In this document: in pieces, positions 36,986 through 50,565 of the stretch
Layout of the letters: each line of letters opens with the position of its first letter
Position numbering within the stretch: the first letter of the stretch is position 1
Source of the DNA: Cellulosimicrobium cellulans
Lineage (GTDB): Bacteria; Actinomycetota; Actinomycetes; Actinomycetales; Cellulomonadaceae
Assembly (NCBI RefSeq): GCF_016921195.1
Contig: NZ_JAFGYF010000003.1
Span: 1-64,000 of the forward strand
Length of the DNA stretch: 64,000 nucleotides
Direction: 5' to 3'
Program-made: the position numbers and the translations under genes
Notes under the pieces: generated by a model
Databases searched by the model: none
Seen by the model: the letters and a program-made list of their open reading frames with translations, nothing else
Told to the model about the DNA's origin: nothing

Positions 36986-37061
<76 letters not shown>

Positions 37062-37693: not shown

Positions 37694-38911
37694 ATGACCG
37701 AGGCAGCACCGCTCCAGCCCCCCGCACCGACGGAGACCCTCACGCTCAGCGCCCCGGAGCCCGTCAAGCCCGTCGCCGCCACGCAGGCGCCCGCGCTCGC
37801 GCCGCGCATCGACGAGGCGGCGATCCCGGGCCTCGAGTCGAAGGTCTCCTCCTACCTCGACCAGCTCCTGTCGACGGACACGCGCTCGCCGGAGTTCGCG
37901 GCGAAGGCCGACGACGTCCGCAAGATGGGAGACAAGGACATCCGCGCCGCGGCCGACGTCTCCAACCGCATGCTCGAGATGCCGGTCAAGGAGCTGCGCG
38001 AGGGCGGCGTCTCCGAGAGCTCCAAGGTGAGCAAGTCGCTGCTCGAGCTGCGCCGCACGGTCGAGGACCTCGACCCGAGCGAGGCGAGCGTGGGCAAGAA
38101 GTTCCTGGGCCTCATCCCGTTCGGCGGCAAGATCCAGGACTACTTCCGCCGCTACGAGAGCTCGCAGAAGCAGCTCAACGCGATCGTCCAGTCGCTCTAC
38201 AACGGCCAGGACGAGCTTCGCAAGGACAACGCCGCCCTCAACCTCGAGAAGCAGAACCTCTGGGACTCGATGGCGCGCCTCAACCAGTACATCTTCATCG
38301 CGGAGCGCCTCGACACCGAGCTCTCGACGAAGATCGCGGAGCTCGAGCCGAGCGACCCGGAGCGCGCCCAGGCTCTGCGCGAGGACGTGCTGTTCTACGT
38401 CCGCCAGAAGCACCAGGACCTGCTCACGCAGCTCGCGGTGTCCATCCAGGGCTACCTCGCGATGGACATCATCATGAAGAACAACGTCGAGCTCATCAAG
38501 GGCGTCGACCGCGCGACGACCACGACGGTCTCCGCGCTGCGCACCGCCGTGATCGTGGCGCAGGCGCTCGCGAACCAGAAGCTCGTGCTCGACCAGATCA
38601 CGGCGCTCAACACGACGACGTCGAACATGATCGCCTCGACCTCGAAGATGCTGGCCGACCAGTCGGCGAGCATCCAGCAGCAGGCGGCGAGCGCGACGGT
38701 CGGTCTCCCGCAGCTCCAGCAGGCGTTCGCCAACATCTACGCGACGCTCGACTCGATCTCGACGTTCAAGACGCAGGCGCTCGACTCCATGGCGCAGACC
38801 ATCGGCGTCCTGGAGACCGAGACGACGAAGGCGAACGAGTACCTGGACCGCGCCCGCCGCTCCGACCAGTCGCAGGCGGGCAGCGGCTCGCTCGACATCG
38901 GTCGGCTGTGA
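37694..38911 (+). CDS. telA: TelA/KlaA-family toxic anion resistance protein
   Basis: A 405-residue cytoplasmic, almost wholly helical protein of the TelA family. The Ala/Pro-rich first ~45 residues are followed by conserved segments FLGLIPFGGKIQDYFRRYESSQKQLNAIVQSLYNGQDELRKDN, LNQYIFIAERLD, VLFYVRQKHQDLLTQLAVSIQGYLAMDIIMKNN and LIKGVDRATTTTVSALRTAVIVAQALANQKLVLDQI. TelA proteins are associated with tellurite and other stress resistance and with Ter-type stress systems, but their biochemistry is unsettled. It opens a ten-gene plus-strand run ending with the FHA gene. ATG follows GAAGGACAG. Confidence 0.92.
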   Translation: MTEAAPLQPPAPTETLTLSAPEPVKPVAATQAPALAPRIDEAAIPGLESKVSSYLDQLLSTDTRSPEFAAKADDVRKMGDKDIRAAADVSNRMLEMPVKELREGGVSESSKVSKSLLELRRTVEDLDPSEASVGKKFLGLIPFGGKIQDYFRRYESSQKQLNAIVQSLYNGQDELRKDNAALNLEKQNLWDSMARLNQYIFIAERLDTELSTKIAELEPSDPERAQALREDVLFYVRQKHQDLLTQLAVSIQGYLAMDIIMKNNVELIKGVDRATTTTVSALRTAVIVAQALANQKLVLDQITALNTTTSNMIASTSKMLADQSASIQQQAASATVGLPQLQQAFANIYATLDSISTFKTQALDSMAQTIGVLETETTKANEYLDRARRSDQSQAGSGSLDIGRL

Positions 38912-38964
38912 CGCGCCGTCCCCCGACCACCCCGCCCCGCACCACAGATCGGACCCCGAGCTAG

Positions 38965-39537
38965 ATGGGCTGGTTCTCCGACGTGATCGGCCGCCTCGGC
39001 GGCCGGTCCCCCGCGCCCGAGCCCGCGCTCGAGCTGCCCGCCCCGCCGACGTCGGCCGAGATCCTCGCCTCGGTCGAGCGGGTCGAGCAGCAGATCGAGG
39101 GACGCGTGCCGCCGGCCGTCACGGCGCGCGTGCACCGCATCACCGGCACGGTCGAGGAGATGGTGCCGCGCCTCGACCGCCTCGGCGGCGGGTCGCAGCA
39201 GGCGCACACCGTCGTCGCGACGGCCACGAGCTACCTGCCCGAGTCCGTCGGGGCGTACCTGCGCCTGCCGCGCGACTTCGCCGACCGGCGGGTCGTCGCG
39301 CAGGGCAAGACGTCGCTCATGCTGCTGTGCGACCAGCTCGACCTACTCGGCGTCACGCTCGACAAGATCTCCGACGCGGTCTCGCGCGCCGACGCCGCGG
39401 CGCTCGTCGCGCACGGCGCGTTCCTCGCGGAGAAGTTCCGCGACTCGTCGATCGCGCTCGACCCCGGGGCGGGCCAGGGCACGCCCCAGCCGCCGAGCGG
39501 CCCGCCCGCGGAGCCCGGACGACTGGAGGCACCATGA
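38965..39537 (+). CDS. Hypothetical helical protein of the telA cluster
   Basis: A 190-residue soluble protein of unknown function. After a short amphipathic start (MGWFSDVIGRLGG) and a Pro-rich linker, residues ~30-155 are helical, including TARVHRITGTVEEMVPRLDRL and SYLPESVGAYLRLPRDFADRRVVAQGKTSLMLLCDQLDLLGVTLDKI. The arrangement recalls small partner proteins of TelA (XpaC-like), but I cannot confirm that family. The C-terminus is Pro/Gly-rich. It lies 53 bp after telA and overlaps the next gene by ATGA. Confidence 0.8.
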   Translation: MGWFSDVIGRLGGRSPAPEPALELPAPPTSAEILASVERVEQQIEGRVPPAVTARVHRITGTVEEMVPRLDRLGGGSQQAHTVVATATSYLPESVGAYLRLPRDFADRRVVAQGKTSLMLLCDQLDLLGVTLDKISDAVSRADAAALVAHGAFLAEKFRDSSIALDPGAGQGTPQPPSGPPAEPGRLEAP

Positions 39538-41234
39538 CCGGCCCGGTGACCCCGAGCCTCGCGGCGTCGCTCGACGCGCTGGAGGCTGCCGCGCGCGCCG
39601 CGGGCGTGGAGGAGGAGGCGGCACGCGACGAGGGCGCCCGGCTCGCGGCGGCCGTCGCCGAGTCCTCCCCCGGAGCCCCCGCCGCGTGGCTCGCCGCGCT
39701 CGGGCACGACCCCGCCGCGACGGGCGCGTTCTTCACCGCCGCGTCGAGCGCTCGGCGCTGGCGCACGTCGCCGACGGACGTCCTCGCCGCCCTCGGCGCG
39801 GCGCGCTCGAAGCACGCCGCGGCCTACGGGCGGGCGCTCGCCGACGTCGCACGCGCGGCCGGGCACCTCGGCTCGCCCGGCCCGCACGTGGCCGGGGCCG
39901 CGGCGGCCACGGCGGCCGTCCAGCAGTCGGGCACCTCCCCGGTGCCGGCCCCGGCCGCCGCTCCGGGCGTCGGCCGGGCCTCGTCGGGCCCGACGGCGGC
40001 GCCCGCCGCGGGAGGACCGGTCGCCGCGCGCCCGGCGACCGGCGGCGTGGACCCGTTCGACCTCGGCGACCTGCTCGCCGGGCAGGGCTCGCTCGAGGCC
40101 CTGCGACGCCCGGCGCCCGAGGTCCCGTCCGTCGAGTCGATCCTCGACGCGCTCGGCGCACGCCCGACGGCGGCGCCGCCCGGGCCGACGCCCGCCTCGT
40201 CGTCGAGCACGACGACGTCGGGCAGTCAGACCGGCACGCCCGCGGGAGGCGCCTACGCCACGGCCGCGCGCGCCGAGGCGGCGACGACGACCGAGGTCGC
40301 GGCCGAGGAGGAGCCGCCCCGCTCGATCGAGGAGCTGCTCGCCGAGCTCGACGCGCTCACGGGGCTCACCCGCGTGAAGGACGAGATCCACCGCCAGACC
40401 GAGCTGCTCCGCGTCGAGAAGCTGCGCACCGAGGCGGGGCTGACCCGCCCCACACTGACGCGCCACCTCGTATTCCTGGGAAACCCCGGTACGGGCAAGA
40501 CGACGGTCGCGCGCCTCGTCGCGGGGATCTACCGCGCGCTCGGGCTGCTCGAGAAGGGCCACCTCGTCGAGGTCGACCGCTCCGAGCTCGTCGCCGGCTA
40601 CCTGGGCCAGACCGCGGTGAAGACGTCCGAGGTCGTCGCGACCGCGCTCGGCGGCGTGCTGTTCGTCGACGAGGCGTACGGGCTCGCGGAGGACCAGTAC
40701 GGCGCCGAGGCCATCAACACGCTCGTCAAGGACATGGAGGACCACCGCGACGAGCTCGTCGTCATCGTGGCGGGCTACCCCGGGCCGATGGCCGACTTCC
40801 TCGCCACGAACCCCGGCCTCGAGTCGCGGTTCTCCACGACCATCACGTTCGAGGACTACGCCGACGCCGAGCTGCGCGACATCTTCGCGGGCATGGCGGC
40901 GAAGGCCGACTTCGAGCCCACGCCCGAGGCGCTCGAGGTGTTCGCGCGCCTCGCCGCCGCGCAGCCGCGCACCGAGGGTTTCGGCAACGCGCGCTGGGCC
41001 CGCAACGTGCTGGACGCCGCGATCGCGCGGCACGCGTGGCGGCTCAAGGACACCGAGGCGCCGACGATCGACGAGCTCCGCCTCCTGCTGCCCGTCGACG
41101 TCGTCGACGGCGAGGGCGCCCCCGCGCTCCTCGCCACGCTCGACCCGCCGAAGACCGAGGACACCCCGACCGCGGACGCGCCCACCGACGACGCACCCGA
41201 GTCCGCCCCCTCCACCGCCGAGGAGAACGCATGA
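39534..41234 (+). CDS. AAA+ ATPase of the CbbX/SpoVK/EccA type
   Basis: A 566-residue ATPase. Residues 1-110 are helical, 110-260 an Ala/Pro/Thr-rich linker, and 265-530 the AAA module: LTGLTRVKDEIHRQTELLRVEKLR, Walker A FLGNPGTGKTT, pore segment GYLGQTAVKT, Walker B GGVLFVDEAYGL, sensor 1 VIVAGYPGPM, arginine finger region NPGLESRF, and a C-terminal lid (GNARWARNVLDAAI). Relatives are the rubisco activase CbbX, SpoVK and EccA of type VII secretion, all acting as remodellers. The substrate may be a partner in the same operon. Start and stop overlap both neighbours by ATGA. Confidence 0.9.
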   Translation: MTGPVTPSLAASLDALEAAARAAGVEEEAARDEGARLAAAVAESSPGAPAAWLAALGHDPAATGAFFTAASSARRWRTSPTDVLAALGAARSKHAAAYGRALADVARAAGHLGSPGPHVAGAAAATAAVQQSGTSPVPAPAAAPGVGRASSGPTAAPAAGGPVAARPATGGVDPFDLGDLLAGQGSLEALRRPAPEVPSVESILDALGARPTAAPPGPTPASSSSTTTSGSQTGTPAGGAYATAARAEAATTTEVAAEEEPPRSIEELLAELDALTGLTRVKDEIHRQTELLRVEKLRTEAGLTRPTLTRHLVFLGNPGTGKTTVARLVAGIYRALGLLEKGHLVEVDRSELVAGYLGQTAVKTSEVVATALGGVLFVDEAYGLAEDQYGAEAINTLVKDMEDHRDELVVIVAGYPGPMADFLATNPGLESRFSTTITFEDYADAELRDIFAGMAAKADFEPTPEALEVFARLAAAQPRTEGFGNARWARNVLDAAIARHAWRLKDTEAPTIDELRLLLPVDVVDGEGAPALLATLDPPKTEDTPTADAPTDDAPESAPSTAEENA

Positions 41235-42580
41235 CGACCACCCCGGTCCGCCCGGCGGGCCAGCAGATCGTCCCCGCGGGCGGCCCCGCGCCGGGCGGCC
41301 CCGCGGCCGCCCCGCCCGGGGCTCCCGCCGGTGCGCCGAACGCCACCGTGTCCCGCGCCCGGGGCGCCCTGCGCCGCACGCCCGGCAAGCTGCGGCTCGT
41401 CATGGCCCTGTGCGTGCTCGCCGCCGTCGCGCTCGGCGTGCTCGGCTTCCAGGCGGGCAGCGTCCAGTCGCGAGCGCTCGGTGCCGCGAGCGAGGACACC
41501 GCGCAGCTCGTCGGCGTGCAGGAGGTGCGCAACGCGCTCGTCGCGGCCGACGCGACGGCGACCGGCGCGTTCCTCGTGGGTGGTCTCGAGCCCGCCGACC
41601 AGCGCGCCCGGTACGACGACCTCGTGGACCAGGCGGCGAACGGCCTCGCCACGCTCTCCGGGAGCAACGAGGGCGACGCGGAGCTGCTCGGCCAGGTCGC
41701 GGCCGACCTCACGGTCTACACGGGCCTCGTCGAGCAGGCGCGCGCCAACAACCGGCAGGGCTTCCCGGTCGGCTCGGCGTACCTCGACCAGGCGTCGACG
41801 ATCCTGCGCGAGCAGATGCTCCCGGCGCTCGACGAGGTCGTGCTCGACGACGCCGACCGCGTCGCCGCCGACTTCTCGGGTGTCCGCAACGCGCTGTGGG
41901 TGCTCGCGGGCGGGCTCGTCGCGCTGGCCGTGCTCGTCGTCAGCCAGGTCTGGCTCGCGCGTCGCACGCACCGCGTGCTCAACGTCGGGCTAGCGGTCGC
42001 GACCGCCGTCGTGCTCGTCGTCGGCATCGTGTCCACGGTCCTGCTCGCCCAGGCGAGCTCGCGCGCGCAGGACGTGCGCACCGGACCCTACGCCGCGACG
42101 CTCGCCGCGTCGCAGGCGTACTCGCTCGCGAACGACGCGAAGTCGATGGAGGCGTTCACGCTCATCAAGCGGGGGTCGGGGCAGGCGTACGAGGAGGCGT
42201 TCGTCACCGCGACGGACGACGCCGCGGCGCGGCTCGACACCGCGACGTCGGAGGGGATCCTCGACGGGTCGACCGCCCAGGCCCTCGACGCCTGGGTCAC
42301 CCGGCACGCGGACATCCGCGCGCTCGACGACGCGGGCCAGTGGGACGAGGCGGTCGCGCTGGCGACGGCGACGGACCCCGAGAGCCCCAACGCCGCGTTC
42401 GACGCGTTCTCCGCGTCCGCGCGCGGCGACATCGAGACGAACGCGGCCGCCACGAGCGAGCGCCTGGACGGTGCGGCGACGACCGCGACCGTGGCGGGCT
42501 GGCTCCTGCTGGCCGCGGGCCTCGTCGCAGCGCTGCTCGCGTGGCGCGGCGTGACCGCACGACTGGAGGAGTACCGGTGA
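41231..42580 (+). CDS. glnX: GlnX-like membrane sensor protein
   Basis: A 449-residue membrane protein. After a Pro/Ala/Gly-rich cytoplasmic tail, four membrane helices are seen: about 57-75 (LVMALCVLAAVALGVLGF), 217-238 (ALWVLAGGLVALAVLVVSQVWL), 246-268 (VGLAVATAVVLVVGIVSTVLLA) and 421-440 (VAGWLLLAAGLVAALLAWRG). Two extracytoplasmic helical segments (about 80-215 and 270-418) lie between. This topology, followed directly by a glutamate-binding lipoprotein and a PknG kinase, matches mycobacterial GlnX (Rv0412c), which passes the ligand state of GlnH to PknG. Assignment rests on topology and context. Overlaps are ATGA upstream and GTGA downstream. Confidence 0.82.
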   Translation: MTTTPVRPAGQQIVPAGGPAPGGPAAAPPGAPAGAPNATVSRARGALRRTPGKLRLVMALCVLAAVALGVLGFQAGSVQSRALGAASEDTAQLVGVQEVRNALVAADATATGAFLVGGLEPADQRARYDDLVDQAANGLATLSGSNEGDAELLGQVAADLTVYTGLVEQARANNRQGFPVGSAYLDQASTILREQMLPALDEVVLDDADRVAADFSGVRNALWVLAGGLVALAVLVVSQVWLARRTHRVLNVGLAVATAVVLVVGIVSTVLLAQASSRAQDVRTGPYAATLAASQAYSLANDAKSMEAFTLIKRGSGQAYEEAFVTATDDAAARLDTATSEGILDGSTAQALDAWVTRHADIRALDDAGQWDEAVALATATDPESPNAAFDAFSASARGDIETNAAATSERLDGAATTATVAGWLLLAAGLVAALLAWRGVTARLEEYR

Positions 42581-43608
42581 CCACGACGCCCGCCACCCCC
42601 GACCGGAGCCGTCGCGCCGGTGCCCGCCGGCGCCGCAGCGGCGTCGTGACGACCGGACTCGCCTCGGCGCTGGCCGCGGTGCTCGCGCTGGCCGCGTGCT
42701 CGGGACCGTCCGGCGCGGACGACCTCCGCCTCACCGAGGCACCGCAGGACGAAGCGGCCGAGGAGGCGCCGGCCGCGCCGGCCGCTCCCGCGGAGTGCGC
42801 CGACCCGCTCGCCTCGTACGCGCCCGAGGGCGCGCTGCCCGGACCCGACGCTTTGCCCGGCGGCAGCACCATGGCCGCGATCCGCGACCGCGGCTCGCTG
42901 ATCGTGGGCGTCTCGGCCGACACGTTGCTCATGGGCGCGCGCAACCCGTTGTCCGGCCAGATCGAGGGCTTCGACATCGACGTGCTGCACGAGATCTCGC
43001 GCGCGATCTTCGGCGACCCCGACCGGCTCACGTTCCGGGTCATCACGTCGGGTCAGCGCCTGGAGGTGCTCGAGAACGGCGAGGTCGACCTCGTCGCGCG
43101 CGCGTTCACCATCACCTGCGAGCGCTGGGAGTCCATCGCGTTCTCGGCGGAGTACTACCACGCCGGCCAGAAGGTGCTCGTCACGCGCGACTCGACCGCG
43201 AGCGGCATCGCGGACCTGGAGGGCCAGCGCGTGTGCGCGCCGGAGGGCACGACGACCCTCACGCGCCTTGAGCAGTTCTCCGGCATCGAGCCCGTCCCCG
43301 CCACGACCCACACCCAGTGCCTCGTGCTGTTCCAGCAGGGCAAGGTCGACGCGATCACGGGCGACGACACGATCCTCGCCGGCTTCGCGGCGCAGGACCC
43401 GTACGCGAAGGTCGTCGGCGAGGCGATCAGCGACGAGCCGTACGGCATCGGCGTCCCTGCGCAGAACGTCGACATGGTCCGCTTCGTCAACGGCGTGCTC
43501 GAGCAGATGAAGTCCGACGGGCGCTGGGCCGCGATCTACGGCGAGTGGCTCGGCGGGCTCGGCCCCGCCCCGGCCCCGCCGACCGCGGTGTACGGCCGCA
43601 CGCCGTGA
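42577..43608 (+). CDS. glnH: GlnH-like amino-acid-binding lipoprotein
   Basis: A 343-residue type-3 solute-binding protein. The signal peptide ends in a lipobox (ALAACSG, Cys at about 41), so it is anchored outside the membrane. Binding-fold segments include AAIRDRGSLIVGVSADTLLMGARNPLSGQIEGFDIDVLHEISRAIFG, VDLVARAFTITCERWESIAFS, and CLVLFQQGKVDAITGDDTILAGFAA. It resembles glutamate/aspartate-binding GluB/GlnH proteins. No ABC permease or ATPase is nearby; instead it is wedged between GlnX-like and PknG-containing genes, so a sensing rather than uptake role is likely. GTGA overlaps on both sides. Confidence 0.9.
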   Translation: MTTTPATPDRSRRAGARRRRSGVVTTGLASALAAVLALAACSGPSGADDLRLTEAPQDEAAEEAPAAPAAPAECADPLASYAPEGALPGPDALPGGSTMAAIRDRGSLIVGVSADTLLMGARNPLSGQIEGFDIDVLHEISRAIFGDPDRLTFRVITSGQRLEVLENGEVDLVARAFTITCERWESIAFSAEYYHAGQKVLVTRDSTASGIADLEGQRVCAPEGTTTLTRLEQFSGIEPVPATTHTQCLVLFQQGKVDAITGDDTILAGFAAQDPYAKVVGEAISDEPYGIGVPAQNVDMVRFVNGVLEQMKSDGRWAAIYGEWLGGLGPAPAPPTAVYGRTP

Positions 43609-44711
43609 CGCGCACGACGGCACCCGAGGCGCCGGGACGGCTCGGCGAGGCGATCCCCGCCGCCGACCTCCTGGCGTACCTCGCCGCGCTCGAGACCTGG
43701 CTCGACGAGCGGCGCACGGAGCTCGACCGGCTCGACGCCGCCGCGCAGGCCGCCGCGACGCCCGACGCCTACACGGCCGACCTCGTGCTCGCGCTCTCGC
43801 TCTGGCAGGCGATCCGCACGCGCGCGGACGAGATCCGGCCGGTCTGGGACTCGGGCCGGGCGGACGCCGTCGCCCGCGAGAAGATCTCCCAGCTCGTCTG
43901 GGGGCGCCTCGACTCCGGGTCGGGTGCCGCGCTCGTCTCGCTCGTGGAGGCGGTCAAGCTGTGCGACGCGCTCGTCGTGCAGCTGCGCACGCGACTGTCC
44001 TTCGACCCGCACACCGCCGACCAGGTCGCGCGGCTGCGCGGCGTGCGCGCCGAGCTCGTGCGCTGCGAGGACCTCGCCGGCTCGGACGCCGACGCGCGCG
44101 GGCGCGTCGAGACGCTGCGCGGGCGCCTCGACCACCTCGTCGCGCAGGCCGCGCGCGGGGCCGACGTCTCGGGCCCGCTCGCGGAGCTCGAGACCGAGGT
44201 CGCGCGGGCCGAGCGCGACCTCATCGTGGCGTCGGCGCAGCGCCGTGAGCTGCGCCGCGACCGCGCACGGACCGAGGAGCAGCGCGCCGCGCTGGAGGCC
44301 CGCGAGCCCGCGCTGCGCGAGCTCGTCGCACGCTGCCGGCGCGAGATCGCGCACCCGCCCCGGCTCGCCGTCCCCGACGTCTCGCGACTCGGCCCCGTCC
44401 CCGACTCGCGGTTCGAGCTCGACGCCTACGCGGCGCGGCTCGCGACCGTGGCCCGCGCCGTCGAGACCGTCGAGGACGCCTACACCCGGCCCCTGCGCGA
44501 GCGCGCCGAGCTGCGCTACAGCCTCGAGCGGCTCGCCGCGAAGGCCGAGGCCAACGGGCGCGCGGCGTCGCCCACGGTGCGCTCCGGCCACGCCGAGGCG
44601 CGCGAGGCCGTCGAGGCGGTCCCGTGCGACGTGACGCTCGCGCGCTTCCTCGTCGAGCAGTACCAGTTCCTCACCCGCGACCTGCCCACCCCGGAAGGAG
44701 CGTCGTCGTGA
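43605..44711 (+). CDS. Coiled-coil hypothetical protein between glnH and pknG
   Basis: A 368-residue soluble, highly helical protein with Arg/Glu/Ala/Leu heptads over most of residues 130-245 (LAELETEVARAERDLIVASAQRRELRRDRARTEEQRAALEARE). No known domain was recognised. The C-terminal part contains VETVEDAYTRPLRERAELRYSLERLAAKAEANGRA. It has no counterpart in the three-gene mycobacterial glnX-glnH-pknG unit. GTGA overlaps at both ends put it firmly in the operon; it may act as a scaffold or adaptor. Confidence 0.82.
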   Translation: MTRTTAPEAPGRLGEAIPAADLLAYLAALETWLDERRTELDRLDAAAQAAATPDAYTADLVLALSLWQAIRTRADEIRPVWDSGRADAVAREKISQLVWGRLDSGSGAALVSLVEAVKLCDALVVQLRTRLSFDPHTADQVARLRGVRAELVRCEDLAGSDADARGRVETLRGRLDHLVAQAARGADVSGPLAELETEVARAERDLIVASAQRRELRRDRARTEEQRAALEAREPALRELVARCRREIAHPPRLAVPDVSRLGPVPDSRFELDAYAARLATVARAVETVEDAYTRPLRERAELRYSLERLAAKAEANGRAASPTVRSGHAEAREAVEAVPCDVTLARFLVEQYQFLTRDLPTPEGASS

Positions 44712-47062
44712 CCACCACCGCGACCGTCCCGTGCTCGGAGCCCGGCTGCCCGGGCACCATCGAGGACGGCTACTGCAACGTCTGCGGCGCGCCCGCGGGC
44801 GGCTCCGGCGGCACGCCGACGGGGACCTCGTCCGGCACCGCCGGGGCACCCGCCCCGGGGAGCGCCGCGGCCGCCTCGCCGTCGGCGATGCTCGGCACCG
44901 GCTTCGTCCAGGGGCGCCCCGGGGCGTCCACCGGCGGAGCAGACCCCGACGCCGAGCGCTCCACGCGCACGGGCCGCACGAGCTCGAGCCGCCTGGCGTC
45001 CACGGCGCTCGGCTCGGCGCGCACCGCGGCGACCGGCTCGAAGGCGACGCGGCGCGTCGGGACGTCCTCGACGCGACTGCGCGGGCGCGGCCTCGGCGCC
45101 GGGCTGACGACCGTGCCGTCCGTCCCCGCGCGCGACCCGCTGCAGTCCGTCATGGCGGTGCCCGAGGTCGCCGAGCGCAAGCGGTTCTGCCCCGCGTGCG
45201 GCGAGAAGGTCGGCCGCGGACGCGACGGCCAGCCCGGCCGCACGTCCGGCTTCTGCCCGCACTGCGGCAACCGGTTCGACTTCACGCCGCAGCTCCAGCC
45301 GGGCGACCTCGTCGGCGGGCAGTACGAGGTCGTCGGCTGCCTCGCGCACGGCGGCCTCGGCTGGATCTACCTGGCGCGCGACCAGAACGTGTCCGGCCGG
45401 TGGGTCGTGCTCAAGGGCCTGCTCAACTCGGGCGACCCGGACGCGTACGCGGCCGCGATCTCCGAGCGGCAGTTCCTCGCGGAGGTCGAGCACCCGCTCA
45501 TCGTCGAGATCTACAACTTCGCGATGCACGACGGCGCGGGCTACACCGTCATGGAGTACGTCGGCGGCGAGTCGCTCAAGGAGATCCTCCAGGCGCGCCG
45601 CGAGGCCAACAACGGGGTCATCGACCCCATGCCCGTGGACCAGGCGCTCGCCTACGTGCTCGCGATCCTGCCCGCGTTCGCCTACCTGCACGACCACAAC
45701 CTGCTGTTCTGCGACTTCAAGCCGGAGAACGTCATCCAGCAGGGCGACGGCGTCAAGCTCATCGACCTCGGCGGCGTGCGGCGCGCCGACGACATGACGT
45801 CGGCGATCTTCGGGACGGTCGGGTACCAGGCGCCCGAGGTGGCGGAGGTCGGTCCCTCGATCGCGTCGGACATCTACACGATCGGCCGCACGCTCGCGAC
45901 GCTCGTGCTCGACTTCCGCGGCAACACGACGACCTACGTCGCGTCGCTCCCGCCGGTCGCCGACACGCCCGTGTTCCAGCAGTACGACTCGTTCTACCGT
46001 CTGCTCGCCAAGGCGTGCGCGCTCGATCCCGCGGACCGCTTCGCGACCGCCGACGAGATGCGCACCCAGCTCCTCGGTGTGCTGCGCGAGGTCGTCGCGG
46101 CGGACGCGGGCCCGGGCAACCCGGCGCTGCACTCGGCCGCGTCCGTGCTGTTCGAGGCCCCGGTCGCCGACGTGGCGGCCCGGCCGCTCGCGTGGGACGA
46201 GCTCCCCACGCTGCGCCGCGACGACCACGACCCGATGGCGAGCTGGCTCGCCGGGGTCAACGTCGTCGACCCGGACGCGCGCCTCGCCGCGCTCGCCGAC
46301 GCGCCCGAGGACACCGTCGAGGTGCGCCTCGCGCGCGCCCGCGCGGCGATCGAGGCGGGCCGCTTCGACGTGCTGCGCGACACGATCGGCACGATCCTCG
46401 CCGACGACCCGTGGGAGTGGCGCGCGGCGTGGCTCGGCGGCCTCGGCGAGCTCGCCCAGGGCGACCCGGTCGCTGCGCGCGCGTCCTTCAACGCGGTCTA
46501 CGGCCAGGTGCCCGGTGAGCTCGCGCCCAAGCTCGCGCTCGCGGCGGCGTGCGAGCTGAGCGGCGAGCCGGACATCGCGGAGTCGCTCTACGTGATCTGC
46601 GCGCGCACCGACGCCAACTACACCGCGCCCGCCGCGTTCGGTCTCATGCGCATCCGGGAGGCGCGCGGCGACCTCGACGGCGCCCTGCACGCGCTCGACC
46701 TCGTCGGCCCGACGCGCGGGTCGTACGTCGAGTCCCGCACGCTGCGCGCGCACCTGCTCGCCGAGTCGGGGCGCGGCCTGCCCGCGCTCGCGGACGCCAT
46801 GGCGAGCGTCGCCGCGGTGTCGATCGCGCCGCGCGAGCGCGCCGAGCTCTCCGTCGGCGTGCTGCGCTCCGCGCTCGAGACCGTCACGCGCTCCGGGCCC
46901 GAGCCGACGACGCGGATCGCGGGCGTGCCCGCGGACGAGCCCGCGCTGCGCGACGCCCTCGAGGGCGCGTACCGCGAGCTCGCGTCGCTCACGGACTCGC
47001 GCGACGAGCGGATCACGCTCGTCGACCGTGCGAACGAGGTGCGCCGGTGGACGATCCGATGA
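44708..47062 (+). CDS. pknG: PknG-type serine/threonine protein kinase with zinc ribbons and TPR
   Basis: A 784-residue soluble kinase. The N-terminus begins with a Cys motif (CSEPGCPGTIEDGYCNVCG), then a ~120-residue disordered linker. A rubredoxin-like pair of Cys knuckles follows (CPACGEKV...CPHCGNRF, about 160-195). The kinase spans about 205-455 and closely follows PknG: GCLAHGGLGWIYLARDQN, Lys236 in VVLKG, VMEYVGGESLKE, catalytic Asp336 in CDFKPEN, DLGGV in place of DFG, and YQAPEV. TPR-like helices fill the rest. In mycobacteria PknG phosphorylates the FHA protein GarA (OdhI in corynebacteria) to control 2-oxoglutarate use. Here an FHA protein, a phosphatase and the presumed sensors are in the same operon. 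GTGA upstream, ATGA downstream. Confidence 0.94.
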   Translation: MTTTATVPCSEPGCPGTIEDGYCNVCGAPAGGSGGTPTGTSSGTAGAPAPGSAAAASPSAMLGTGFVQGRPGASTGGADPDAERSTRTGRTSSSRLASTALGSARTAATGSKATRRVGTSSTRLRGRGLGAGLTTVPSVPARDPLQSVMAVPEVAERKRFCPACGEKVGRGRDGQPGRTSGFCPHCGNRFDFTPQLQPGDLVGGQYEVVGCLAHGGLGWIYLARDQNVSGRWVVLKGLLNSGDPDAYAAAISERQFLAEVEHPLIVEIYNFAMHDGAGYTVMEYVGGESLKEILQARREANNGVIDPMPVDQALAYVLAILPAFAYLHDHNLLFCDFKPENVIQQGDGVKLIDLGGVRRADDMTSAIFGTVGYQAPEVAEVGPSIASDIYTIGRTLATLVLDFRGNTTTYVASLPPVADTPVFQQYDSFYRLLAKACALDPADRFATADEMRTQLLGVLREVVAADAGPGNPALHSAASVLFEAPVADVAARPLAWDELPTLRRDDHDPMASWLAGVNVVDPDARLAALADAPEDTVEVRLARARAAIEAGRFDVLRDTIGTILADDPWEWRAAWLGGLGELAQGDPVAARASFNAVYGQVPGELAPKLALAAACELSGEPDIAESLYVICARTDANYTAPAAFGLMRIREARGDLDGALHALDLVGPTRGSYVESRTLRAHLLAESGRGLPALADAMASVAAVSIAPRERAELSVGVLRSALETVTRSGPEPTTRIAGVPADEPALRDALEGAYRELASLTDSRDERITLVDRANEVRRWTIR

Positions 47063-48282
47063 GCGAGTCCCCGGCCGCCTCCCCCGGCGGCGCGGTCGCG
47101 GAGCCGTCCGACGTGCTCGCTTGCCCCGCGTGCGGGGAGCCGTCGCCCGACGGCGCCCGGTTCTGCGAGGCGTGCGGCACGCCGCTCGCGGCGCTCCCGC
47201 CGGCGGGCGAGACGCCCGACGCCGCCCCCGACGGCGGCGCGCCGTCCGAGGCCACGCCCTCGGACGCGGCGACGTCGGACCCCGGGGACGGGGAGCCGTC
47301 GGCTCCCGCCGCGCGACCGTGCGTGCGCTGCGGTGGCCGCGTCGCCGAGGACGGGTACTGCACCGAGTGCGGCGAGCCCGCAGCCTCGGAGCGCGACCAC
47401 TGGGCCGAGCGGCCCGCGGCGTGGGTCGCCGGCGTGTGCGACCGCGGCGTGCGGCACTCGCGCAACGAGGACGCGATGGCGCTCGCCGCGAGCGCGTCGG
47501 CGACCGCCGAGCGCGCGTTCGCCGCGCTCGTCGTGTGCGACGGCGTCTCCTCCGCCCCCGACTCCGACGTCGCGAGCCTCGCGGCCGCGCGCGCGGCACG
47601 CGACGTCCTCGCCGCCGGTGCTCCGGAGGGTGCCTCCCCCGTCGTCGGCGAGCCGACGGCGCGGGTCGCCGCCTGGTCCGCGCTCGTCGGGGACGCCTCG
47701 CGCGCCGCGCAGGACGCGATCCTCGCGACCGTGGGCGCGATGGCCGACCGCGAGAACCCGCCGTCGTGCACGTTCGTCGCGGCGGTCGTGGACGGCCCGC
47801 TCGTGGTGACGGGCTGGGTGGGCGACTCGCGCGCCTACTGGATCCCCGACGACGGGGAGGCGCACCAGCTCAGCGTCGACGACTCGTGGGCGCAGGAGAT
47901 GATGGCGCAGGGCATCCCCCGCGCCCAGGCGGAGAGCTCGCCCCAGGCTCACGCGATCACGCGCTGGCTCGGCCCCGACGCGCCGGACCCCGTCGCCCGG
48001 ACGGCCGCGACCTTCCCCGACCGTGACGGCTGGGTGCTCGTGTGCTCGGACGGACTGTGGAACTACTGCTCCCCGGCCGCCGACCTCGCCGCGCTGCTCC
48101 ACGACACCCAGAGGCGGGTCGGCGACGAGCCCCGCACCGTCGCCGGCGCTCTCGTGGACTGGGCGAACGCCCAGGGCGGCCGGGACAACATCACGGCGAC
48201 GCTCGCGCGCTTCGTCCGGTCGTCGACCGCGGCCCCCGCGGAGCTCGACCCGGACCTCGAGACGACGATCCCGAGGACCTGA
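47059..48282 (+). CDS. PP2C-family serine/threonine phosphatase with two N-terminal zinc ribbons
   Basis: A 407-residue protein. Two zinc ribbons (CPACGEPSPDGARFCEACG at about 21-39, CVRCGGRVAEDGYCTECGEP at about 88-107) precede a PP2C domain (about 118-395). Metal-binding and catalytic motifs are present: GVCDRGVRHSRNEDA, VVCDGVSS, GWVGDSRAYW, CSDGLWNY and GRDNITATLARF. It should dephosphorylate Ser/Thr on proteins, most likely the products of the adjacent kinase. It has no membrane helix, unlike PstP. ATG overlaps the pknG stop by 4 nt. An 82-bp gap follows before the VWA gene, which has its own GAAGGAGCC site. Confidence 0.92.
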   Translation: MSESPAASPGGAVAEPSDVLACPACGEPSPDGARFCEACGTPLAALPPAGETPDAAPDGGAPSEATPSDAATSDPGDGEPSAPAARPCVRCGGRVAEDGYCTECGEPAASERDHWAERPAAWVAGVCDRGVRHSRNEDAMALAASASATAERAFAALVVCDGVSSAPDSDVASLAAARAARDVLAAGAPEGASPVVGEPTARVAAWSALVGDASRAAQDAILATVGAMADRENPPSCTFVAAVVDGPLVVTGWVGDSRAYWIPDDGEAHQLSVDDSWAQEMMAQGIPRAQAESSPQAHAITRWLGPDAPDPVARTAATFPDRDGWVLVCSDGLWNYCSPAADLAALLHDTQRRVGDEPRTVAGALVDWANAQGGRDNITATLARFVRSSTAAPAELDPDLETTIPRT

Positions 48283-48364
48283 CCCGGCCGTTCCCCACCG
48301 TCCGGCACGACCCGCCCACGACCCGATAGCCTGCACGAACACCCGCACCACCGAAGGAGCCCCC

Positions 48365-49648
48365 ATGGCCGAGTTCGCCGCCGAGGTCTACCAGAACGAG
48401 TTCCTGTCCGAGGGCGCCACGGACGTCCACGCGATCGTCACCGTGACGTGCACGGGTGCCGGCAGCGCGGGGAGCGCCAGCGGTGCGGGCGGGGTCGCCG
48501 AGATCATCATGGTCGACACGTCCGGGTCGATGTCCGGCCGCAACATGGAGGCCGCCAAGCACGCCGCCCAGGTCGCCGTGGACCAGATCCTCGACGGGAC
48601 GTGGTTCGCGATCGTGGGCGGCAGCCACGTCGCGAACCGCATCTTCCCGTACCCCAACGCGCGCATGGCGATGGTCCAGATGGAGCCGGGCGCGCGCGCC
48701 GAGGCGAAGCGCGCGATCTCGATGCTCACGCCCGGCGGCGGCACGGCGATGAGCACGTGGCTGCGCCTCGCGGACCAGCTCTTCGCGACCGTCCCGCAGG
48801 CCACCCAGCGGCACGCGATCCTCCTCACCGACGGCAAGAACGAGTCGGAGCCGCGCGCGAACCTGTCCGCGGCGGTCCGCGACGTCACGGGCCACTTCCA
48901 GTGCGACGCGCGCGGCGTCGGCTCGCGGTGGCAGGTCGACGAGCTGCGCGAGATCTCGACCGCTCTCCTCGGCACGGTGGACCTCATCGCGGACCCGAAC
49001 GAGATCGCGGCCGACTTCGAGAAGCTCATGCAGGCGTCCATGGCCCGCGGCGTGGCCTCGGCCGACCTCCGCGTGTGGGCCCCGCAGGGCTCCCAGGTGC
49101 TGTTCGTGCGCCAGGTCGCGCCGACCGTCGAGGACCTCACCCACCGCCGCTCCGAGGTCAACCCGCTCACGGGCGCCTACCCGACCGGCTCGTGGGGCGA
49201 CGAGTCGCGCGACTACCACGTCGCCGTGCGCGTCGCGTCGAAGCCGGTCGGGTCGGAGCAGCTCGCGGCGCGCGTGCAGCTCGCGGTGAACGGCGAGGTC
49301 GTCTCGTCGGGCCTGGTCAAGGCCAAGTGGTCCGACGACGAGTCGCTCACCACGCGCATCAACCCCGAGGTCGCGCACTACACGGGCCAGACCGAGCTCG
49401 CCGCGGCCATCCAGGAGGGCCTCGCCGCCAAGGCGGCGGGCGACGAGGCGACGGCGACCGTCAAGCTCGGGCGCGCCGTGCAGCTCGCCCAGCAGACCGG
49501 CAACGACGAGGCGACGTCGCGGCTGCGCAAGGTCGTCGACATCGACAACGAGGAGCAGGGGACGGTGCGCCTCAAGCGCAACACCTCGACCCTGGACGAG
49601 ATGGCGCTCGACACCGCCTCGACGAAGACGACCCGGGTCCGCCGGTGA
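48365..49648 (+). CDS. VWA domain protein of the pknG cluster
   Basis: A 427-residue soluble protein. A von Willebrand factor A domain covers about residues 40-235. The metal-ion-dependent adhesion site is complete in outline: IIMVDTSGSMSG (DxSxS), the Thr in GGGTAMST, and Asp in LLTDGKNES. The C-terminal half is beta-rich, then ends in a helical repeat (AIQEGLAAKAAGDEATATVKLGRAVQLAQQTGN) and a short DNEEQGTVRLKRNTSTLDEMALDT tail. That tail contains Thr residues in an acidic setting that could be kinase targets; this is speculation. VWA proteins accompany kinases and TelA/TerD in stress systems. It has a GAAGGAGCC site and is joined by GTGA to the FHA gene. Confidence 0.9.
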   Translation: MAEFAAEVYQNEFLSEGATDVHAIVTVTCTGAGSAGSASGAGGVAEIIMVDTSGSMSGRNMEAAKHAAQVAVDQILDGTWFAIVGGSHVANRIFPYPNARMAMVQMEPGARAEAKRAISMLTPGGGTAMSTWLRLADQLFATVPQATQRHAILLTDGKNESEPRANLSAAVRDVTGHFQCDARGVGSRWQVDELREISTALLGTVDLIADPNEIAADFEKLMQASMARGVASADLRVWAPQGSQVLFVRQVAPTVEDLTHRRSEVNPLTGAYPTGSWGDESRDYHVAVRVASKPVGSEQLAARVQLAVNGEVVSSGLVKAKWSDDESLTTRINPEVAHYTGQTELAAAIQEGLAAKAAGDEATATVKLGRAVQLAQQTGNDEATSRLRKVVDIDNEEQGTVRLKRNTSTLDEMALDTASTKTTRVRR

Positions 49649-50565
49649 GCGCCGTCGTCTGCCCCAACGGGCACCCGTCCGAGTCGACCGACTACTGCGA
49701 CGTGTGCGGCGAGCCGATCGGCGCCGCGTCGGCACCCGTCGCGTCCGCCCCGAGCGGCTCGGCGCCCGCGCCGGGCGGCGCCGCGACCGCGCCCGCGACG
49801 ACGTGCCCGAACTGCGGGTCCCCGGCCCCCGACGGCGCGCTGTTCTGCGAGAACTGCGGCTACGACTTCACGACGGGCGCCCTGCCCGACCCGGTCGAGC
49901 CCCCGTCCGCGCTCTCGCTCGACCCGCCGTCGCGCCCGACACCGCCCGCACCCGCGGCACCCGCGGGAGGCACGGCCTCGGGGTCCACCCCGCCCGCGCC
50001 GTCGGCCTCCGGCGCGACCCCGGCGTCGTCGTCGACCCCGCCCCCGCTGCCCGCCCCGACGACGCCCACCGCTCCCGAGGCGGGTGCCGCAGGCGAGCCG
50101 GCCGACCCGGGCGTCCCCGCGACGTCGGGCACCCACCTGCCCACGCCCCCGGTCCCGGGACCGGACCAGTGGGTCGTCGAGATCTGGATCGACCCCGACT
50201 GGTACACGGCCCAGCAGCCCGAGGACCCGATGCCCTCCGCGGGACTGCCCGGTCTCGTCGTGCTGCGCGAGCGGAGCGTGCTCGTCGGGCGGCCGTCGGT
50301 GTCGCGGGGCATCCACCCGCAGGTCGACTGCGGCGCGGACACCGGCGTCTCGCGTCGGCACTGCCAGCTCAGCACCGACGGCCAGCGGTGGTGGGTCGAG
50401 GACCTGCAGTCGTCGAACGGGACCTACGTGAGCCCCGCGGGCGAGCCGCTCCCGACGGACCCGATCCCCGCCGGCCAGCGCCGCGAGCTGGCCGACGGGG
50501 ACCGGATCTACCTCGGCGCCTGGACGCGGCTCGTCGTCCGCAAGGCGCTCCCGGGCGAGGTCTGA
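49645..50565 (+). CDS. FHA domain protein with two zinc ribbons
   Basis: A 306-residue protein. Two N-terminal zinc ribbons (CPNGHPSESTDYCDVCGEP and CPNCGSPAPDGALFCENCGYDF) are followed by ~115 Pro/Ala/Ser-rich residues and a C-terminal FHA domain (about 205-300). The phosphothreonine-binding motifs are intact: SVLVGRPS, GVSRRHCQL and SSNGTYV. FHA domains bind pThr peptides, so this is the likely reader of the PknG-type kinase, in the place GarA/OdhI holds elsewhere. It differs from GarA in having ribbons and no recognised N-terminal ETTS motif. Gene ends 7 bp from the convergent hsp20 stop. Confidence 0.92.
   Translation: MSAVVCPNGHPSESTDYCDVCGEPIGAASAPVASAPSGSAPAPGGAATAPATTCPNCGSPAPDGALFCENCGYDFTTGALPDPVEPPSALSLDPPSRPTPPAPAAPAGGTASGSTPPAPSASGATPASSSTPPPLPAPTTPTAPEAGAAGEPADPGVPATSGTHLPTPPVPGPDQWVVEIWIDPDWYTAQQPEDPMPSAGLPGLVVLRERSVLVGRPSVSRGIHPQVDCGADTGVSRRHCQLSTDGQRWWVEDLQSSNGTYVSPAGEPLPTDPIPAGQRRELADGDRIYLGAWTRLVVRKALPGEV

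Follow-up and report, generated by a model that had tools for sequence, protein, structure and literature searches.

Gene Content of the Operon

The window analyzed here, a stretch of 64,000 nucleotides (nt) from Cellulosimicrobium cellulans (contig NZ_JAFGYF010000003.1), contains an operon of ten plus-strand genes at 37694-50565. In order, these genes encode a TelA family protein, an all-helical protein herein referred to as Hel26, a CbbX/EccA-type ATPase, the membrane signal transducer GlnX, the solute-binding protein GlnH, a second all-helical protein (CC30), the kinase PknG, a PP2C phosphatase, a VWA protein, and a protein with zinc ribbons and an FHA domain (Table 1). With moderate confidence, we consider the operon to encode a transmembrane Ser/Thr phospho-signaling circuit, driven by PknG and built as a phosphoswitch similar to ArnAB, with its own sensor and its own eraser. 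The operon form is real and widespread, and it appeared undescribed in the literature searched; Fig. 2B of PMC6069109 may show more genes.

The ten genes and their frequent 4-nt overlaps had been described in an earlier note made from the sequence alone. A gene finder based on codon usage gave the same outer coordinates, and the junctions along the operon are +53, -4, -4, +65, -4, -4, -4, +82, and -4 nt, with a 4-nt overlap at six of nine. No Pfam family was found for Hel26 or CC30 at E 0.1.

Table 1. Products of the ten-gene operon and the candidate phospho-acceptor tail, with the matches on which the assignments are based.
Feature	Position	Strand	Evidence
TelA family protein, 405 residues	37694..38911	+	PF05816, 316 bits (cut-off 30), E 3e-94
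Hel26, all-helical, putative TelA partner, 190 residues	38965..39537	+	AlphaFold2 (AF2) model helical, predicted local distance difference test (pLDDT) 86
AAA ATPase of CbbX/SpoVK/EccA type, with AAA_lid_6	39534..41234	+	CbbX 3syk, E 3e-59; EccA1 9lur, E 4e-50
GlnX-family membrane signal transducer	41231..42580	+	NF058618, 315 bits (cut-off 250)
GlnH-like solute-binding protein, SBP_bac_3	42646..43608	+	MtGlnH 6h1u, E 3e-71; lipoprotein by eye
CC30, all-helical, between GlnH and PknG	43605..44711	+	AF2 pLDDT 94
PknG kinase: Cys-rich N-terminus, rubredoxin, kinase, TPR	44708..47062	+	PF16919, PF00069, and PF16918 over cut-offs; MtPknG 2pzi, E 2e-136
PP2C phosphatase (PP2C_2), N-terminal double zinc ribbon	47059..48282	+	PF13672, PF12773
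VWA protein related to 4FX5 (VWA_3 + VWA_3_C), DxSxS motif	48365..49648	+	PF13768, PF18571
VWA C-terminal tail, residues 411-427, S419-T420-K421-T422, candidate phospho-acceptor	49595..49645	+	conservation
Zinc-ribbon and FHA protein, ArnA-like	49645..50565	+	PF00498, PF12773

Conservation of the Gene Order

The rubredoxin domain of PknG was matched in 30 of 296 genomes of the phylum (23 over the cut-off), in 34 of 297 genomes of the order (33 over the cut-off), and in 62 of 150 genomes of the family. Sixty stretches were picked for the spread of genera, 40 of them from 39 order and family genomes and 20 from the class and phylum. A set of 80 named loci was brought in by a VWA profile and represents the best 80 of 530.

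The full ten-gene order of the window was found in 30 of the 40 PknG loci of the order and family. Among the loci falling short, TelA and Hel26 were called in swapped order in L131, the stretch ends within the operon in L113, and the contig starts within it in L093. PP2C of L117 and GlnH of L094 were uncalled in this count, yet they scored 390 and 246 bits, respectively, in another search; GlnH of L108 was found in neither search. Reduced gene sets were found in L104, L114, L118, and L121. All ten genes are present in 50 of the 80 named loci, including those of Cellulosimicrobium, Oerskovia, Cellulomonas, Promicromonospora, Agreia, Kineosporia, Kribbella, Nocardioides, and Terrabacter, while several of the remaining 30 run into contig ends and some others show rearrangements. 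The closest among these best 80 of 530 belong to Cellulosimicrobium, with VWA identities of 98, 93, and 91%.

The five genes flanking the operon in the window each recur in just 2 to 11 of the 92 loci having TelA, PknG, and FHA (window included); the two upstream ones could be assessed only in the PknG-fetched loci of the order and family, as the named loci end there. Because the flanking genes recur so rarely and the ten-gene order so often, the operon is conserved beyond chance. The comparison of PknG neighborhoods that had been suggested earlier thus bears out the view that sensor, kinase, phosphatase, and FHA protein belong together: they travel as one conserved operon. An arrangement of the pknG operon conserved in Actinomycetales and in other Actinobacteria with PknG has been reported (PMC6069109). 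In the window, the operon is preceded by a tRNA-Arg gene (36986-37061) and followed by a gene on the opposite strand, read from its sequence as Hsp20-like, which starts 7 nt past the FHA stop codon.

The VWA Protein and Its FHA Neighbor

VWA proteins were compared at 141 loci, of which 80 were fetched by VWA and 61 by PknG (the window among the latter); VWA matches below 300 bits, including L288 and L296, were left out. The C-terminal tail has the consensus D-E-M-x-L-D-T-x-S-T-K-T-x-R-V/I and is almost invariant at the Ser and Thr positions, with S419 conserved in 139, T420 in 138, and T422 in 140 of the 141 loci. An FHA gene follows within 1.5 kilobases (kb) on the same strand at 132 loci, and a PP2C gene lies within 3 kb of the VWA gene at 130. 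The nine loci lacking a following FHA gene include three at stretch or contig ends (L113, L183, and L191) and four second PknG copies (L134, L140, L142, and L293); in L169 and L232, no FHA gene was called after VWA despite 10 kb of room. For the 61 loci of the second set, nearness of VWA to PknG is built in by the way in which they were selected. For the 80 VWA-fetched loci, a PknG of more than 400 bits was found within 8 kb in 67. The other 13 comprise seven loci with less than 3.2 kb upstream, one with a run of N there (L162), and five with no close PknG (L157, L173, L177, L179, and L186). VWA and FHA remain paired in operons that are broken, namely in Rathayibacter (L173 and L177), Enemella (L186), and Oerskovia rustica (L157).

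Two variants of the pair were also observed. In both Rathayibacter loci, the VWA-FHA pair is remote from PknG as well as PP2C; the gene that it faces, on the opposite strand, is for a different kinase, similar to PknB. In the three loci L134, L140, and L142, from a family herein labeled f6, a second PknG-like kinase adjoins a VWA protein whose DST[KR]T motif is followed by a C-terminal zinc ribbon, and FHA, GlnX, and GlnH were not detected there as separate genes.

When a 15-sequence VWA profile was compared with solved structures, PDB entry 4FX5 was matched over its full length (E 4e-164), and chain A of 8s05 was matched in the vWA domain only (E 2e-6). Entry 8S05 is an ArnAB structure, and chain length led us to assign chain A to ArnB, because chain C matches the operon FHA protein. 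For the latter, the top structure match is ArnA (5a8i, E 4e-9, residues 217-267; 8s05 chain C, E 5e-9), followed by GarA (E 3e-6). 4FX5 shares the three-part architecture of a paralog of ArnB (Hoffmann et al., 2019; PMC6509490). In Sulfolobus, the C-terminus of ArnB is phosphorylated by ArnC and bound by ArnA, and this is reversed by PP2A (PMC6509490; PMC7472852; PMC12852372). According to a 2026 paper, ArnC phosphorylates the C-terminal helices of ArnB and the FHA domain of ArnA binds them, while a zinc finger holds the unphosphorylated complex (PMC12852372).

As judged from sequence, the VWA and FHA proteins of the window appear to make up the gene pair of ArnAB, a vWA protein of the ArnB/4FX5 architecture adjoining a zinc-binding FHA protein. 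With the Sulfolobus switch, the operon shares this adjacency, a Thr-rich C-terminus of the vWA protein, and the presence of a kinase and a phosphatase. It differs in being bacterial, in having PknG for ArnC and PP2C for PP2A, in its own transmembrane sensor, and in the Thr motif. The operon is therefore likened to ArnAB and not filed as a member, because its phosphatase is PP2C and not PP2A. According to PMC12852372, the same architecture, where found elsewhere, is mostly not involved in such processes; for actinobacteria, the operon context speaks for the opposite.

Distribution and Phylogeny of PknG Operons

In the 297 genomes of the order, VWA_3_C was found in 30 genomes and close Hel26 (more than 190 bits) in the identical set of 30, all inside the 34 genomes with PknG. 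By coordinates, each of the 30 VWA matches lies no more than 5 kb from PknG. The PknG genomes without VWA are G326 (a weak, broken match), G397, G430, and G555. Distant Hel26 was found in 32 additional genomes, giving 62 of 297. Of 296 class genomes, 110 have PknG_TPR (108 of them over the cut-off) and 76 have VWA_3_C (74 over it), with both present in 72; PknG stands without VWA in 38, and 26 of these are from a single family, f7. These counts are not independent events, because the genomes are related. The sole VWA carrier among the 27 f7 genomes with PknG is G916, where an extra PknG adjoins the VWA match (G916:C144).

Operons of smaller content were found in other families. GlnX-GlnH-CC30-PknG-PP2C-VWA-FHA is present in 8 of 11 f6 loci, where weak homologs occupy the CC30 position between GlnH and PknG; the remaining three are second PknG copies. 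The same genes are found in three of five f94 loci, and four f93 loci (L290, L292, L294, and L295) have the order PknG-PP2C-VWA-FHA-GlnX-GlnH. In f7, GlnX-GlnH-PknG stands alone in six of eight loci, and PknG occurs without GlnX and GlnH in two. This family is taken for the mycobacteria and their relatives, as judged by its PknG and GlnH, which appear closest to those of M. tuberculosis. Three-gene loci are L305 (f110) and L306 (f7). In the set of 20 further class loci, to which the four f93 loci, the f94 loci, L305, and L306 also belong, TelA-Hel26-AAA was found in L287, L302, L303, and L304, with no GlnH call in L287 and L302. L152, from another class, has CC30-PknG-PP2C-VWA-FHA with divergent GlnH and GlnX.

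In a quick, unrooted tree of PknG (68 rows, pieces shorter than 350 residues excluded), 27 rows with TelA or AAA fall inside a single starred group that has 32 rows. Another starred group, made up of the nine f7 rows, is nested in a larger, unstarred group of 18 rows (support 93), which also holds eight f93 rows labeled PP2C or VWA, plus L305. The three-gene label requires at least five changes on this tree, and PP2C-VWA-FHA is present in distant lineages. The simplest reading suggests that PP2C-VWA-FHA is old, that TelA-Hel26-AAA was gained once and later, and that the three-gene mycobacterial form is reduced; this order of events is a reading and no proof, because the root of the tree was not inferred. 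The description of the operon as expanded, given in the earlier note, therefore fits TelA-Hel26-AAA but not PP2C-VWA-FHA.

In the literature consulted, PknG is studied through GarA/OdhI in mycobacteria and corynebacteria. More tentatively, and somewhat short of calling it probable, we suggest that the ancestral client of actinobacterial PknG was an ArnB-like vWA protein and not GarA. PknG would place the mark on its S-T-K-T tail, an ArnA-like FHA protein would recognize it, and PP2C would remove it; this switch would have been coupled to a TelA-AAA machine in one lineage and lost in mycobacteria, where only GlnX-GlnH-PknG was retained. The operon would then be a bacterial relative of archaeal ArnAB with its own transmembrane sensor. 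The well-known three-gene mycobacterial version may thus be a stripped-down form of a larger signaling circuit.

Sensor Proteins

As in the GlnX-GlnH-PknG-GarA/OdhI system of Mycobacterium and Corynebacterium, the sensor protein, membrane relay, and kinase are encoded in one operon. The operon of the window differs in adding CC30, PP2C, VWA, FHA, and TelA-Hel26-AAA, in the altered side-chain pocket of GlnH, and in having as its FHA protein a zinc-ribbon, ArnA-like protein and not GarA. GlnX exceeds the cut-off of its family model (Table 1) but not that of the equivalog NF041460 for the kinase-G-activating protein (112.7 bits, cut-off 780); its membrane helices were read by eye.

In MtGlnH, the side chain of Asp or Glu is contacted by R147, T162, and W232 (PMC6069109). 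In the alignment, the window GlnH has R, A, and H at these positions, retaining R147 alone. Across 94 loci of the ten-gene type, the equivalents of R147, R169, and D250, all named in the same paper, are each kept in 93, and the position of S164, likewise named there, is Ser or Thr in 93. Thr is found at the T162 position in 23 loci; the W232 position is His in 76 and Trp in none, while Trp is kept in all seven f7 loci with GlnH. With the changes at T162 and W232, GlnH does not qualify as Asp/Glu-specific by these contacts, and the sensing of Asp/Glu is not established for this operon. The ligand is likely amino-acid-like.

Proposed Circuit and Alternative Explanations

The analysis shows to which known proteins the parts are related, how far they keep their order and occur together, how conserved the VWA tail is, and that VWA pairs with FHA; the ligand and the phosphorylation, binding, and output steps of the circuit are inferred. 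Outside the membrane, GlnH would bind an amino-acid-like ligand, and GlnX would relay the signal to PknG, as in the mycobacterial and corynebacterial module. PknG would phosphorylate the S-T-K-T tail of VWA, and the product of the following gene, the zinc-ribbon/FHA protein, would then bind this tail in the way known for ArnA and phosphorylated ArnB of Sulfolobus. PP2C would erase the phosphate and reset the switch. As output, the VWA-FHA complex may control the TelA-Hel26 pair and the CbbX/EccA-type AAA remodeler. If a vWA-FHA pair with a dedicated phosphatase is what PknG acts on in many other actinobacteria, the GarA/OdhI pathway becomes a reduced case, the role of the solved yet unexplained structure 4FX5 becomes testable, and the archaeal phosphorylation switch acquires a bacterial counterpart whose sensor is defined. 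This would also place the TelA family, the function of which is unclear, in a signaling context.

Several points weigh against such a switch. No report of phosphosites, binding, or phenotypes came to light, and gene order and co-occurrence are what link the switch to TelA and AAA as a candidate output. VWA is absent from 38 of the 110 class genomes with PknG, and PknG therefore works without it; conversely, four of the 76 class genomes with VWA have no PknG match, three of them with VWA at 23-26 bits. In L157, PP2C-VWA-FHA has no PknG within 10 kb upstream, and the VWA-like matches beside PknG in L288 (65 bits) and L296 (98 bits) are devoid of the STKT motif. Two animal vWA proteins, 4cn8 and 9c4f, outscore ArnB in the profile search, so the direct match of VWA to ArnB is unspecific and the link runs through 4FX5; the FHA match to ArnA spans 51 residues. 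The known phosphosites of ArnB sit in its helical bundle, the phosphatase there is PP2A and not PP2C, and none of the ArnB sites is known to correspond to STKT. The invariant tail residues could serve instead for docking of the kinase, the phosphatase, or AAA.

A different use of the same genes would be an ordinary PknG-GarA metabolic module, in which the additional genes would assist from the same transcript, the phosphatase being dedicated to the module and the second FHA protein acting like GarA on metabolic enzymes, with no switch in the VWA tail. PknG, GlnX, and GlnH are clearly related to the mycobacterial proteins, and another contig of the same genome encodes a GarA/OdhI-like FHA protein (156 bits, below the OdhI model cut-off of 200) with an N-terminal SDTTVSF stretch that contains the DTT motif. 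The gene adjoins a MerR-like gene, and its locus resembles the Rv1827-Rv1829 neighborhood. The operon FHA protein was itself rejected as GarA/OdhI: it scores only 30 bits against the OdhI model, has zinc ribbons at its N-terminus in place of an ETTS-type motif, and matches ArnA better than GarA. This result and the nearly invariant VWA tail make the purely metabolic module unlikely. PknG may act on the separately encoded GarA-like protein as well. The earlier contrast with systems whose GarA/OdhI lies elsewhere is not exclusive, because of this second locus.

The locus could also be a Ter-like stress or defense system in which TelA, Hel26, AAA, and VWA act and PknG was recruited as the kinase, comparable to the TerY-P triad of VWA, PP2C, and kinase. 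Of 14 chosen places with distant Hel26, TelA lies directly upstream of it in 12; genes were listed at six, and in three of these (L243, L244, and L247) TelA-Hel26 has neighbors read by eye as TerD and TerC, while L251 has TelA-Hel26 without them. The pair is thus common to the operon and to Ter operons, but in the window it accompanies PknG signaling genes and an AAA gene, and a family search found no TerD match in the genome, on which ground membership in a Ter stress system was rejected. Of the parts described earlier as typical of Ter systems, TelA with its helical partner lies in Ter-like operons of three inspected relatives, yet there is no Ter system here. Neither VWA nor PP2C gave a PADLOC match at E 0.001 (whether the models include the TerY-P triad was unchecked), and other families have the core operon without TelA-Hel26-AAA. 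One type of conflict system does show a kinase-PP2C-vWA neighborhood (PMC7159879), but a Ter-like role appears quite improbable. Control of an envelope or secretion machine, with AAA as an EccA-like remodeler, would draw on a similar combination of kinase, PP2C-type phosphatase, and FHA logic, which also operates in the type VI threonine phosphorylation pathway. AAA does match EccA1, and type VII variants include kinases, PPM phosphatases, vWA, and FHA (PMC11217815). However, CbbX is the better match of AAA, the TagH model gave 29 bits against its cut-off of 120, and none of the ten genes, to which the search for secretion genes was confined, matches a WXG100 family, a secretion ATPase, or other secretion apparatus, the likeness of AAA to EccA aside; a secretion role is highly improbable. 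The phosphoswitch remains our preferred reading, and the interpretation given in the earlier note is, overall, partly supported.

Further observations concern Hel26 and PknG. One to three tandem Hel26-like stretches follow TelA in L243, L244, L247, and L256, and a Hel26-like helical stretch without TelA was seen in L246 and L248, the latter adjoining genes that read as histidine biosynthesis; this may be a different helical family. At the N-terminus of PknG (44708-45100 of the window), the stretch TRRVGTSSTRLR is alike in many ten-gene loci and may be a site of autophosphorylation and FHA docking.

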